Positions 3,769-32,178 of a stretch of 37,296 nt of DNA are shown piece after piece (positions within the stretch are counted from its first letter, which is position 1; every line of letters begins with the position of its first letter). Source of the stretch: a virus. Where the stretch lies: positions 1 to 37,296 of the IMG/VR virus record IMGVR_UViG_3300049595_005520, one strand, 5' to 3'. Below the pieces are notes generated by a model, which saw only the letters and a program-made list of their open reading frames with translations, ran no database searches and had not been told where the DNA came from. A program made the position numbers and the translations under genes.

Positions 3769-4866
3769 TCAGGGCGGCCCAAGCTGTTTCTTCAGGGCTT
3801 CTGGGATGTTTTTTGCACCCTCGAAGCGATCAGCGGAGGGCCAACTGGTTTTCTCATCCCATTTCACCCCTTCAAGGTTGGCCCCGTTGAGGTTGGCCCC
3901 TCTGAGATCGGCATCGAAGAGGTCGGCCCCGCTGAGGTCGGCGCCGCTGAGGTTGGCCTTGTAGAGGTCGGCGCCGCTGAGGTTGGCCCCGATGAAGTCG
4001 GCCCTGATGAGGATGGCCCCGTTGAGGTCGGCCCTGATGAGGATGGCCCCGTTGAGGTCGGCCCTGAAGAGGTCGGCCCTGATGAGGTTGGCCCCGATGA
4101 GATCGGCCCCTCTGAGATCGGCATCTAAGAGGTCGGCCCCGCTGAGGTCGGCGCCGCTGAGGTTGGCCCCGATGAGATCGGCCCCTCTGAGATCGGCATC
4201 TAAGAGGTCAGCCCCGCTGAGGTTGGCCCCGTTGAGGTCGGCCCCGTTGAGGTTGGCCTCGCTGAGGCTAATCAAGTTTCCAGGTTTAACATTTAAGCCG
4301 CTATCCAAAAGAAATCTAACTACCAATCTCTTTCGTTGAGAGTCTTTTACTTGAGATAGGGCAGCAAGAGTCAAGCCACGAGCAATCCCCCTAACTTCAG
4401 AACCGGGGGCCGATGACCTAAGGCCTTTATCCACCAATAAAGGCTGCATCTCCTTGATAAAGTTCGATACAACTTCGCCCTCTCTTTGTTCACGTACAAC
4501 TATCTCTTGGCGATCCTTATCCGCTTTTGCAAGCTTCTCCTGGCGATCTGCGCTGATTACGCTGTAAGCAGTGGAAAGCCCCAAGATCAAGACAGGGAGA
4601 GACACCTTCAACAGCAAATTAGCCCAATCCCAGCCGCTTCTTTCTTTCTCTCCGCTGAAGCGAATTACCCAAGGCCGCCAGGGTCTCTGCCTCAAGGCAC
4701 GCTCTGCAGCTAGCCAGTTTTCCTCTGCTGAAAGCCATGGCCTCTGCTTGCCAAGGCGCTCAGCAATGGGCCTGATCTGCTCGTCTGGGATCTGAGGAAG
4801 CGATGCTTCACTCCCAGGTGGCCATGGGCCCCACAAGGGCCAGCGCCAGGGTGGTGTGGGGTTCAA
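3769..4866 (-). CDS. Membrane-anchored pentapeptide-repeat protein
   Basis: A 365-residue protein in three parts. Residues about 25-60 contain IAERLGKQRPWLSAEENWL, resembling the DUF2934 motif. Residues about 86-107 form one transmembrane helix (LLLKVSLPVLILGLSTAYSV), followed by a charged helical stretch. From about residue 200 to 340 there are more than twenty A(D/N)L-type pentapeptide repeats (such as ADLNG, ANLSG, ADLRG), which fold into a right-handed beta-helix. Pentapeptide proteins of this size are common in cyanobacteria and mostly of unknown role. The only start-like codon is a TTG at 4866, yet in-frame coding-like sequence continues upstream, overlapping the end of the gene at 4871. 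The start, or a frameshift there, needs checking. Third gene of a minus-strand cluster. Confidence 0.8.
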   Translation of the reverse strand: MNPTPPWRWPLWGPWPPGSEASLPQIPDEQIRPIAERLGKQRPWLSAEENWLAAERALRQRPWRPWVIRFSGEKERSGWDWANLLLKVSLPVLILGLSTAYSVISADRQEKLAKADKDRQEIVVREQREGEVVSNFIKEMQPLLVDKGLRSSAPGSEVRGIARGLTLAALSQVKDSQRKRLVVRFLLDSGLNVKPGNLISLSEANLNGADLNGANLSGADLLDADLRGADLIGANLSGADLSGADLLDADLRGADLIGANLIRADLFRADLNGAILIRADLNGAILIRADFIGANLSGADLYKANLSGADLSGADLFDADLRGANLNGANLEGVKWDEKTSWPSADRFEGAKNIPEALKKQLGPP

Positions 4867-6403: not shown

Positions 6404-7657
6404 GTGCCGAAGCCCACCCCCGCCCCTCGCCAAGCACGGGCAGCCAAGGACCGGGGCTGGGTTGCAGCTTTGAGGTTGTCGCTGACATCAGATCTGGGGC
6501 CTCGAAGTGGCTGGACGGTTTCGGAGATGCGTGGGCGCGTTCTGCTGAATGTCTCCGCATCTGCTGCTGGTGGTGCTCGCCAGCAGCGGGTGCTGCCATT
6601 TGCTTGGGACGCTTGTGATCGGCAAGCCATCCATACGGCAGTACTTGCCATTCATGCCGATTTCAGCGATGGAGTACCCCTTGATCTGGCCATCGAAACC
6701 CATGCGCGAATTCCTTCAGAGGAATCGAGCCCTAATGGACTGACGGTTAGCGAGGCAATCAACTGGCCTCAGCTGATTCAAGAGTTCAAGGATCACAAGC
6801 TCAGCAGTGGAGCAATCAAGCAGAGCACCTGGGACGAAATCTATTGGCGACGAATGGCTGTGATTCTGGAGGCCGTTGGTGGTAAGCGACGACCCATCTC
6901 ATCCAAGCAACTGCTGGAGGGCGTGATTGCTTCTTGGAAGGACAGACCTGGATCACGGGGCCGTCAGTTACAGGTTCAATTCACAGCTGCACTGTTGCGG
7001 TGGGGCGTCGATTCGGAACGCTTGCCATCATCCTGGGCACCCCCGCTTGATCTCTCCATTTATGTCGGTCGCAAGCGTGATGAACGTGGAGTCACAACAC
7101 CCATTGATGTCAGCCATGTGCTTGGTTTGGTAGAGGCCATACCTGATCCACGCTGGCGATTGGCGTTTCAGTTGATGGCTGCCTACGGTCTCCGGCCGGA
7201 AGAACTGCAACACCTGGAGATTCAGAAAGAGCAGCTATGGACGACCTACCAGAAGGTATCCAGTCGGGGTCGCACCCGATCCAGGATGCTGCGACTGCTG
7301 CCATGCGACGAATGGGCTCAGGCCTGGCAGCTCGAGAAGGCATTTCGATCCGACCGCATGCCGCCGATGCGACCAGGTCATGGGGCTGAAGACCTTGGCA
7401 CCTATATGCGGCGGCGTCCTCTCTGGCAGCAACTACGGCGAGAGTATGAAGAGAAGGGAGAGAAACTGGTGCTCTACTCCTGCCGTCACGGCTACGCCCA
7501 CCGCGCTCACATCACTTGCGAGCTGCCTCCCAAGGTGGTCGCTGCAGCCATGGGCCACTCTGTGGAAACCCATCTGGCGGCCTACAGCCGCTGGTGCGGA
7601 GATGACGTAGTGGATGACGCTTTTGAAAAGGCGGCCCTAAGAATGAGTAGATCTTAA
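6404..7657 (+). CDS. int: Prophage tyrosine recombinase / integrase 2
   Basis: A 417-residue recombinase. The catalytic residues are visible: Arg in AAYGLRPEEL, second Arg box YSCRHGYAHR (the first His of the usual HxxR is Tyr here, as in integrase 1), His in MGHS, and Tyr nucleophile in LAAYSRW. The N-terminal part (GWTVSEMRGRVLLNV) is homologous to integrase 1. The GTG at 6404 gives the longest form. An ATG at 6530 falls inside the conserved N-terminal motif, so the start is upstream of it. The gene lies beside the tRNA-Pro fragment and reads into the prophage, the standard position for the enzyme that catalyses integration at that tRNA. Confidence 0.88.
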   Translation: MPKPTPAPRQARAAKDRGWVAALRLSLTSDLGPRSGWTVSEMRGRVLLNVSASAAGGARQQRVLPFAWDACDRQAIHTAVLAIHADFSDGVPLDLAIETHARIPSEESSPNGLTVSEAINWPQLIQEFKDHKLSSGAIKQSTWDEIYWRRMAVILEAVGGKRRPISSKQLLEGVIASWKDRPGSRGRQLQVQFTAALLRWGVDSERLPSSWAPPLDLSIYVGRKRDERGVTTPIDVSHVLGLVEAIPDPRWRLAFQLMAAYGLRPEELQHLEIQKEQLWTTYQKVSSRGRTRSRMLRLLPCDEWAQAWQLEKAFRSDRMPPMRPGHGAEDLGTYMRRRPLWQQLRREYEEKGEKLVLYSCRHGYAHRAHITCELPPKVVAAAMGHSVETHLAAYSRWCGDDVVDDAFEKAALRMSRS

Positions 7658-30550: not shown

Positions 30551-30808
30551 CTACCGGTCCATCCGCGTCAGCGCTGCTCCGCCCAGCAGCGCCAGCAGCA
30601 GGTTGAGGGTGGAATCAAAGCCGCCTTGCAGCTGCTCCAGCGTGCCCGGGCAGATCTGACCGACCGGCCGGCCCTCCAGCGCCCGCTGGCCGCAGACCCC
30701 AGCGGCAAGGGAATAGATCAGCAGCTGGGTGCCGATCACCACCGCCAGCGTCTGGAAGACAAACCGCTCCCGATCAAAGGGCGGCCGTGGTGCTGGCTCT
30801 GGCGTCAC
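30551..30808 (-). CDS. Small two-helix membrane protein, possible holin
   Basis: An 85-residue protein with a basic-acidic N-terminus, a membrane helix at about 17-38 (FVFQTLAVVIGTQLLIYSLA) and a second near the C-terminus (TLNLLLALLGGAALTRMDR). Small size, two membrane spans and position right after the lysozyme gene (24-bp gap) fit a holin, which would release the cell-wall enzymes. The short loop CGQRALEGRPVGQICPG with two cysteines is unusual. The holin call is inference from context. Confidence 0.5.
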   Translation of the reverse strand: MTPEPAPRPPFDRERFVFQTLAVVIGTQLLIYSLAAGVCGQRALEGRPVGQICPGTLEQLQGGFDSTLNLLLALLGGAALTRMDR

Positions 30809-30832: not shown

Positions 30833-31429
30833 TCAGGTCCCTGCAGGCGGCAGCACAAGCTCGCCGCTCTGCAGCAGTTGCCAGACGCGCTGGGCTTCCG
30901 CCTGACGCCGCTCGAGGTGAGGGGTGCCGGGGCGGAAGTACCCCTCGGCCGCTGCGGCGGAACCAGTCCAGTAGGCCGCTGCCTCTGCTGGATCCATGGC
31001 GTGCGGCCGCTCCTCAAACACGCGGGTCCAGCCGATCAGCGACCCTTCCGGCGGATCGTGCAGGCCGGCGTACTCCTGGGCGAAATACTGCTCCTGCCAG
31101 CCGTTGCTGTTGGGGTCGATCCCACCGGCAAGGGCCTGCTCACGGGCCGCGTCGTAAGCGGTGCGGCGCACGCCGGTGTACTGCATGGCCCCGCGGCCTG
31201 CACCACTGCCGGCCTCCACCACATCGAGGTTCTCCAGCTCTGGTTCTCCGGTTTCGACCACCATGCTGCCGAGGAAACCGCAGGCCTCCTCAGCCGTGAG
31301 GGGCTGGATCACGCCCAGGCTGGCCTCTGTGACGGCGCTGCTGCAGAAGAAGCTGAGCCAGTGCTGCAGGTTGACGTGGGGCTGCTGTTCACCTGGGCCA
31401 ATCCCCTCAGGAGCTTGGCCCGCCGTCAC
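30833..31429 (-). CDS. Phage tail-lysozyme-like peptidoglycan hydrolase
   Basis: A 198-residue protein starting with a GTG that overlaps the stop of the L,D-transpeptidase gene (GTGA). Motifs ACGFLGSMVVETGEPELENL (candidate catalytic Glu in VETG) and GAGRGAMQYTGVRRTAYDAA match the pattern of the phage tail lysozyme family, where the usual text is G-x-L-x-x-E-S-G and G-x-G-x-x-Q-W-x-G-x-R. The rest (NSNGWQEQYFAQEYAG, then WTRVFEERPHAMDP) is the helical remainder. CAGGAAAAAAA before the GTG offers AGGA for initiation. It may also be made as a fusion to the transpeptidase by -1 frameshifting (separate entry). Role: cell-wall degradation at entry or lysis. Confidence 0.72.
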   Translation of the reverse strand: MTAGQAPEGIGPGEQQPHVNLQHWLSFFCSSAVTEASLGVIQPLTAEEACGFLGSMVVETGEPELENLDVVEAGSGAGRGAMQYTGVRRTAYDAAREQALAGGIDPNSNGWQEQYFAQEYAGLHDPPEGSLIGWTRVFEERPHAMDPAEAAAYWTGSAAAAEGYFRPGTPHLERRQAEAQRVWQLLQSGELVLPPAGT

Positions 31430-31435
31430 TTTTTT
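31395..31435 (-). promoter_or_regulatory. Probable programmed -1 frameshift signal
   Basis: Read on the minus strand, the heptamer A AAA AAG (31435-31429) is in the transpeptidase frame as GAA-AAA-AAG-TGA. It is followed by a 7-nt spacer and then a stem-loop: GGGCCAA (31421-31415) pairs perfectly with TTGGCCC (31401-31395), with an inner CTCC/GGGG stem and a TGA loop. A -1 slip reads AAA-AAA-GTG-ACG and continues into the lysozyme frame, giving a fusion of about 448 residues. Heptamer, stop, spacer and stem match the bacterial dnaX-type layout. Confidence 0.6.
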
Positions 31436-32178
31436 TCCTGGAACACCCCCACATAGACCGTGCCCTGGCGGTAGAGGGGCAGCACCCGATCGCGTAGTTC
31501 GGCGTTGTGTAGGCGGACGCAACCCAAGGTGGGATGCAGCGGCTGCATCGCTGCCCAGGCACCGGGCCAGCCGCAGGCTGAGCCACCGCCGTGGAGCATG
31601 ATCCCAGCCCGGCCGGCGGCCACCTCCTGGCCCTCCAGCTCCTCCATGTCAAAGGAGTACCAGCCGTAGGCCATGGCCGTATCGCTGCAGGGGGGATTGG
31701 CGTTCTGCTCGTAATCCGCGTAGAGCTTCCCGAGCTTGTAAAGCCCAGGTGGGGTGTCGGTGTTGGTGTGGCTCCAGTCGGTGTCCGCGCCCTGGCCCCG
31801 GGCTAGGCACGGGATCTTCCAGAGGAACTGGCCGCTGTGCTCATAGGCCTCCATGTCCTGATCGCGGTCATTCACCAGCAGGTAGGAATCACCTGGTTTG
31901 ACGGGCGCGGTCATCTGCGGGCCGGCCATGCCGGCTTCCTCTGAGCCGCGGGGATCGAGGCCGCCAGCTGGTGCTGCGGACTCGGGAGGCGCCGCTGGCA
32001 CAGGCGGCTGCTCGCTGTAGGTCACCGCCCAGGGCGCCTGCTCATCGAGGATCGCAGCGCCCTGGTCGGTACTGCCGATCGCCTCAAAAAGCTGCTGTAC
32101 GCCCCGTTGCTGCTGGGGCTGATCGCGGTAGTAGCGGAAGCGATCGCTGAACCGCTCGGCGCTCATCGGGGTGGTCAT
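31426..32178 (-). CDS. Phage L,D-transpeptidase (YkuD fold)
   Basis: A 250-residue protein. Residues 1-60 are helical (SDRFRYYRDQPQQQRGVQQL) and lead to a Pro/Ala linker at about 60-95. The YkuD domain follows: YLLVNDRDQDMEAYEHSGQF, TPPGLYKLG, GIMLHGGG, then the catalytic HPTLGCVRLHN with Cys at about 220. YkuD enzymes make 3-3 peptidoglycan cross-links or attach proteins to the wall. A phage version without signal peptide may modify or remodel wall peptides during lysis or entry. A second start at 32166 is possible. Its last codons are the slippery sequence that may fuse it to the lysozyme. Confidence 0.82.
   Translation of the reverse strand: MTTPMSAERFSDRFRYYRDQPQQQRGVQQLFEAIGSTDQGAAILDEQAPWAVTYSEQPPVPAAPPESAAPAGGLDPRGSEEAGMAGPQMTAPVKPGDSYLLVNDRDQDMEAYEHSGQFLWKIPCLARGQGADTDWSHTNTDTPPGLYKLGKLYADYEQNANPPCSDTAMAYGWYSFDMEELEGQEVAAGRAGIMLHGGGSACGWPGAWAAMQPLHPTLGCVRLHNAELRDRVLPLYRQGTVYVGVFQEKK

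Follow-up and report, generated by a model that had tools for sequence, protein, structure and literature searches.

The heptamer A AAA AAG is the slippery site of bacterial dnaX, and how readily it slips depends on there being just one tRNA-Lys (PMC5009743); some bacterial dnaX genes, a minority, are reported to have a slip that lengthens the product (PMC5009743). Published screen criteria for such signals are an SD-like GGNGG motif 6–17 nt upstream and a hairpin 4–10 nt downstream (PMC4066793). The phage frameshifts that we found in the open-access literature concern tail or other structural proteins. The type of signal treated here is already known; its use in an endolysin or other lysis enzyme was found nowhere described in that literature, and the reviews and genome-wide frameshift surveys that we examined name no endolysin case. 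An earlier sequence-only reading of this DNA knew of no described case in a phage cell-wall enzyme pair. Comparison of homologous loci makes it highly probable that a dnaX-like programmed −1 ribosomal frameshift operates among the lysis genes of this temperate cyanophage, its product being a likely bifunctional endolysin.

The window, that is, the whole stretch of DNA that was analysed, is a virus record of 37,296 bases. It carries two integrase-like genes and genes for a primase, a terminase large subunit, a portal and a scaffold protein, and its proteins have relatives in Synechococcus phages and in genomes of Cyanobium, Vulcanococcus and Synechococcus. The window comes from a temperate phage, and its family comprises temperate viruses of freshwater cyanobacteria. 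The two integrase-like genes (phrog_1; 1278–2609 and 6404–7657) are separate genes within one 37-kb record. Elsewhere, overlapping stretches of a 365-aa protein (3769–4866) match nine phage families of unknown function, which suggests a repetitive or fibre-like protein.

The features at the junction are as follows.

31426–32178, minus strand: YkuD-domain protein (L,D-transpeptidase-like) of 250 aa, ending VGVFQEKK before the stop (open reading frame; PF03734)
31446–31450, minus strand: SD-like GGGGG, matching GGNGG, 10 nt before the heptamer (sequence; 6–17 nt criterion of PMC4066793)
31436–31439, minus strand: AGGA, a possible SD for the GTG start under a rival mechanism (sequence)
31429–31435, minus strand: slippery heptamer A AAA AAG in the zero frame (sequence; comparison of loci)
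31426–31428, minus strand: zero-frame stop TGA right behind the heptamer (sequence)
31427–31429, minus strand: GTG in the −1 frame, overlapping the stop, a possible restart codon (sequence; GTA in four relatives)
31395–31421, minus strand: hairpin GGGCCAA/TTGGCCC with inner CTCC/GGGG, about −16.6 kcal/mol (folding; conserved position)
30833–31429, minus strand: lysozyme reading frame (Phage_lysozyme2) of 198 aa, reached by a −1 slip (open reading frame; domain match)
30551–30808, minus strand: hydrophobic protein of 85 aa, holin-like by position and composition (open reading frame; conserved next gene)

The minus-strand junction reads GTG GGG GTG TTC CAG GAA AAA AAG TGA. The sequence-only reading had described an in-phase A AAA AAG followed by a stop, a gap of 7 nt and a perfect 7-bp stem with an inner CTCC/GGGG stem, all of which is exact: the spacer from heptamer to stem, stop included, is TGACGGC (31428–31422), and the stem arms are GGGCCAA (31421–31415) and TTGGCCC (31401–31395). 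Its 448-residue product was also correctly computed, since a −1 slip enters the lysozyme frame and joins 250 and 198 codons. The first 19 residues of that frame form a linker containing Gly and Pro. To this description we added the SD-like GGGGG (31450–31446) and AGGA as an alternative SD (31439–31436).

Both domain matches pass the Pfam cut-offs (YkuD, E=2.6e-5; Phage_lysozyme2, E=5.3e-9). In alignment A1, H196 and C220 of the YkuD domain are invariant. The Cys motif is TLGC, the usual YkuD motif being SHGC, and the domain could equally cleave the wall as cross-link it. A PDB sequence search for this locus returned no relatives.

A single sequence proves little here, because in the window both the heptamer count (three AAAAAAG, 1.2 expected) and the stem compared with shuffles (z −0.83, unremarkable) are near chance. 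On these figures the window alone is compatible with a lysine-rich protein end and a GC-rich linker that merely resemble a frameshift signal. We therefore gathered YkuD homologues by protein search from viral contigs and 400 host-family genomes, supplementing the set by DNA patterns with silent positions left free. A lysozyme lay directly downstream in the −1 frame at 15 of 117 distinct YkuD gene ends, and GAAAAAAAG was present in 14 out of these 15 loci, the exception being L169.

GAA AAA AAG was kept in all 14 heptamer loci in which a YkuD-like gene is followed by a −1-frame lysozyme; these loci share kinship, and their codon counts are not independent trials. When gene ends were defined by peptide alone, GAA AAA AAG was found in 30 out of 33, and no homologue with an E-K-K end had a different codon set. 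The Glu codon was GAA in 33 out of 33 peptide-defined loci, as against 9 out of 37 relatives without KK, and GAG was never used. Likewise, the upstream Gly codon was GGG in 33 out of 33 of these loci; in relatives lacking the KK end, GGG accounted for 10 out of 26 Gly codons. The genes here are GC-rich: Lys is encoded by AAA in just 29% of cases and Glu by GAA in 24%. Three of the four most codon-invariant columns among 141 fell inside the cassette in an analysis whose rows were chosen by a DNA pattern already fixing GAA, for which reason it was repeated with the peptide-defined set. In relatives without the heptamer, one or a few residues of another kind follow VFQE at the protein end; judged by these gene ends, the KK pair has been added to the YkuD domain. 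Three loci (L082, L118 and L154) have broken or partial genes, the lysozyme of L154 being truncated. A codon contrast drawn from other genes ending in VFQEKK was dropped, as the four matches were not evident genes.

A G-rich SD-like motif stands 10 nt upstream of the heptamer in 14 out of 14 loci. It is GGGGG in 12 of them; CGGGG, in L055 and L174, is outside the published GGNGG motif. In the window, the GGNGG motif and the hairpin both lie within the distances of PMC4066793. The sequence-only reading had taken heptamer, spacer and stem together as the known bacterial −1 signal, and this was confirmed: heptamer, SD-like element and hairpin fit the published criteria (PMC4066793, PMC3711429, PMC5009743).

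Exactly 7 nt separate the best hairpin from the heptamer in 13 out of 14 loci, and 8 nt do so in L171; the hairpin thus starts within 4–10 nt, has a G-C first pair and is kept across homologues. The 5' arms differ between loci (GGGCCAA, GGGCCAGG, GGGGCCC, GGGGCC and CGGGCC). The longest helix starting at +7 averaged 7.57 bp, a length reached by none of 840 control positions in the same genes. When the two arms were aligned by hand, pairing held in 95.6% of cells, a percentage flattered by fixing the 5' arm at +7, placing the 3' arm by hand and using an artificial loop; both sides had changed in five of the seven pairs, with a covariation score of 0.59 (0.20 in shuffles). In relatives without a lysozyme, the stems are weaker and their distance varies.

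Folding energy was less telling. Per-locus z-scores were modest because the region is GC-rich, and the hairpin-energy control gave low fractions in just about nine of the 14 loci. A per-nucleotide stability difference is biased by the choice of the best hairpin and was positive in lysozyme-less loci too. Sliding windows showed equally strong structure within the YkuD gene, about 185 nt upstream; the structured stretch there lies some 150–190 nt before the heptamer (about 31580–31620 in the window). Since the energy control is weak and equal structure lies upstream, we argue for the stem from its position and covariation. The upstream structured stretch is common to lysozyme-bearing and lysozyme-less loci, and Gly codon 193 (GGG), near it, is frozen in 30 out of 30 rows.

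The signal thus goes beyond chance because it is conserved across loci. The sequence-only reading had expected a genuine signal to be kept in homologues, with the silent positions around it, and so it proved: silent codon positions are frozen, and stem sequences change while pairing is kept. With codons frozen, the stem fixed in position and its changes compensatory, a fortuitous resemblance is hardly credible; the comparison of loci largely refutes it.

These same features bear on transcriptional slippage, by which RNA polymerase would stutter on the seven A, so that some mRNAs carry the lysozyme in frame. Slippage on A-runs is a known alternative at dnaX-type sites (PMC5009743), and the run here is seven A, but cited runs exceed seven (PMC3711429), with nine A in Thermus dnaX. 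Polymerase stuttering requires neither an upstream SD-like motif nor a hairpin at a constant distance of 7 nt, and across 30 loci the run never grows beyond seven and the closing G does not vary. We regard this explanation as very unlikely.

A further alternative is translational coupling, in which AGGA serves as an SD and terminating ribosomes restart at the GTG overlapping TGA, giving two separate enzymes. AGGA is well spaced before GTG in the window, where the start does overlap the stop, but this overlap is not kept across homologues. Natural variants separate the two mechanisms. Four loci (L154, L171, L173 and L174) have TAG as the stop, which turns the overlapping codon into GTA, no longer a start. 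L173 and L174 also have no ATG, GTG or TTG from the junction to the lysozyme domain. Their lysozyme domains are intact, with dN/dS of 0.24–0.26 (against L171 and each other), and across loci the lysozyme frame is under purifying selection (dN/dS 0.11–0.26); the lysozyme of L173 and L174 is therefore presumably made. On the tree, a fully supported branch of 0.47 sets the TAG clade well apart. A viral contig, L204, has the TAG arrangement of L173, with identical match scores.

L156 has lost the stop (TGT), which coupling needs, and has kept heptamer, stem and lysozyme. Its YkuD gene continues for 131 codons in the zero frame across the lysozyme, which could be decay or mean that the short product is dispensable. 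As the TAG loci and L156 show, the stop and the GTG vary, but the heptamer and the stem do not. Coupling is also at odds with the avoidance of GAG, which would give AGGAG and hence a better SD, and with a stem at +7, placed where it would hinder initiation.

Some relatives do favour restarting. L169 clearly couples its genes, with a TGATG overlap, a strong AGGAGG and no heptamer. It is the one locus with the same gene order and no heptamer, a finding that the sequence-only reading had named as counting against frameshifting; because its lysozyme has its own ATG with AGGAGG, we take it as a different solution and not as a counter-example. At L093, L159 and L161, the −1 frame behind the YkuD gene runs straight into the holin-like gene; L093 retains the heptamer, and L159 and L161 have lost it and retain GTG, as coupling would have it. 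Overall, coupling as the explanation of the junction seems unlikely, although it may operate alongside frameshifting in TGA loci. The three products once proposed (transpeptidase, fusion and free lysozyme) are accordingly possible where the stop is TGA and not in the TAG loci, where GTG is lost.

The programmed −1 frameshift that the sequence-only reading proposed is strongly supported by the comparison, with heptamer, SD-like motif and stem in 14 out of 14 −1-frame loci. In our model, a ribosome on the YkuD gene would pause with its P and A sites on the lysine codons AAA AAG; the hairpin 7 nt downstream would block its path, and GGGGG upstream would probably pair with 16S rRNA. The sole tRNA-Lys(UUU) would then re-pair one base back. 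Among the 43 tRNAs found in one host genome (G191) there is one tRNA-Lys, with anticodon UUU; tRNA-Lys(UUU) is also present in three other hosts, where just that gene was sought. Without a slip, translation would terminate immediately and yield the 250-aa YkuD protein. After a slip, GTG would be decoded as a valine within the chain, and translation would pass through the Gly/Pro linker into the lysozyme, yielding the 448-aa YkuD–lysozyme fusion as a bifunctional endolysin. In TGA loci, free lysozyme may also arise by restarting at GTG.

We infer that slippage occurs, how efficient it is and that the product is lytic, whereas the signals and their conservation, the reading frames, the missing restart codon of some relatives and the single tRNA-Lys of one host are seen in the sequences themselves. 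Frameshifting probably sets the ratio between a single-domain YkuD enzyme and a two-domain YkuD–muramidase endolysin, with TAG lineages making the muramidase only as a fusion; such a lysis enzyme would be controlled by frameshifting, its stems rebuilt from different sequence at equal distance in separate lineages.

A lytic role is suggested by relatives that carry the two activities in one frame. YkuD is joined to Phage_lysozyme2 in L007 (445 aa) and L005 (423 aa), to Phage_lysozyme in L145 (477 aa) and to Glucosaminidase in S-CBS4 gp063, which makes YkuD plus a glycan-cutting domain a recurrent design. A bifunctional endolysin is in our inference the likeliest role, the two-domain polypeptide depending here on the frameshift. 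The 85-aa holin-like protein had no family match in family searches; its homologue lies downstream in relatives too. Two loci considered as a further case (L200 and L203, from G094) were rejected: they have a different, C39-peptidase-like middle domain (named by inspection), an ATG-started lysozyme and no heptamer. They share the N-terminal domain and have the C39-like domain instead of YkuD, an arrangement that suggests a swappable catalytic module.

Against the frameshift reading, the heptamer also persists without the lysozyme. On the tree, 15 full-length lysozyme-less relatives, and others besides, keep it, and a slip there adds just 11–12 residues. An in-frame remnant of 11–12 codons (VTAGLVLPPAGA type) with the heptamer kept is found in L031, L033, L034, L035, L047, L057, L058 and L062, and further in L069, L078, L089, L091, L162, L163, L177 and L178; the remnant resembles both ends of the lysozyme, its own end being similar to the lysozyme C-terminus. 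Lysozyme-less loci intermingle with lysozyme-bearing ones on the tree, which hints at repeated loss of the lysozyme. The heptamer may be retained there because the loss is recent or because the short tail is useful.

If the frameshift is real, lysis enzymes join the list of recoded genes, and a phage has a way to assemble a modular lysin from genes that stay separate. It would also explain why the lysozyme of the TAG loci, which lacks a start codon, would escape gene-finding programs. The claim can be tested with small constructs, since the TGA, TAG and stop-loss variants are ready-made natural controls.

Among known systems, E. coli dnaX (tau/gamma) shares A AAA AAG, an upstream SD-like motif, a downstream hairpin and a host with a single tRNA-Lys (PMC3711429, PMC5009743). 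The slip shortens the dnaX product, however, whereas the phage slip lengthens it, with the zero-frame stop directly after the site. Transposases of the IS3 and IS1 families likewise have an A-rich heptamer, a hairpin or pseudoknot 4–10 nt downstream and two overlapping frames that are fused (PMC4066793), but the parts joined are those of a transposase and not lysis enzymes. The phage tail assembly chaperone G/GT is, as cited in PMC6316719 and PMC3556154, also a −1 frameshift of double-stranded DNA phages giving a short and an extended protein; it differs in its heptamers and in concerning structural assembly proteins, where the phage here has a lysis enzyme pair. The one-frame fusion endolysins of cyanophages (L007, L005, L145 and S-CBS4 gp063) have the same combination of YkuD with a glycan-cutting domain, with Phage_lysozyme2 in L007 and L005 as in the window, but they place the glycosidase first and reach it without a frameshift.
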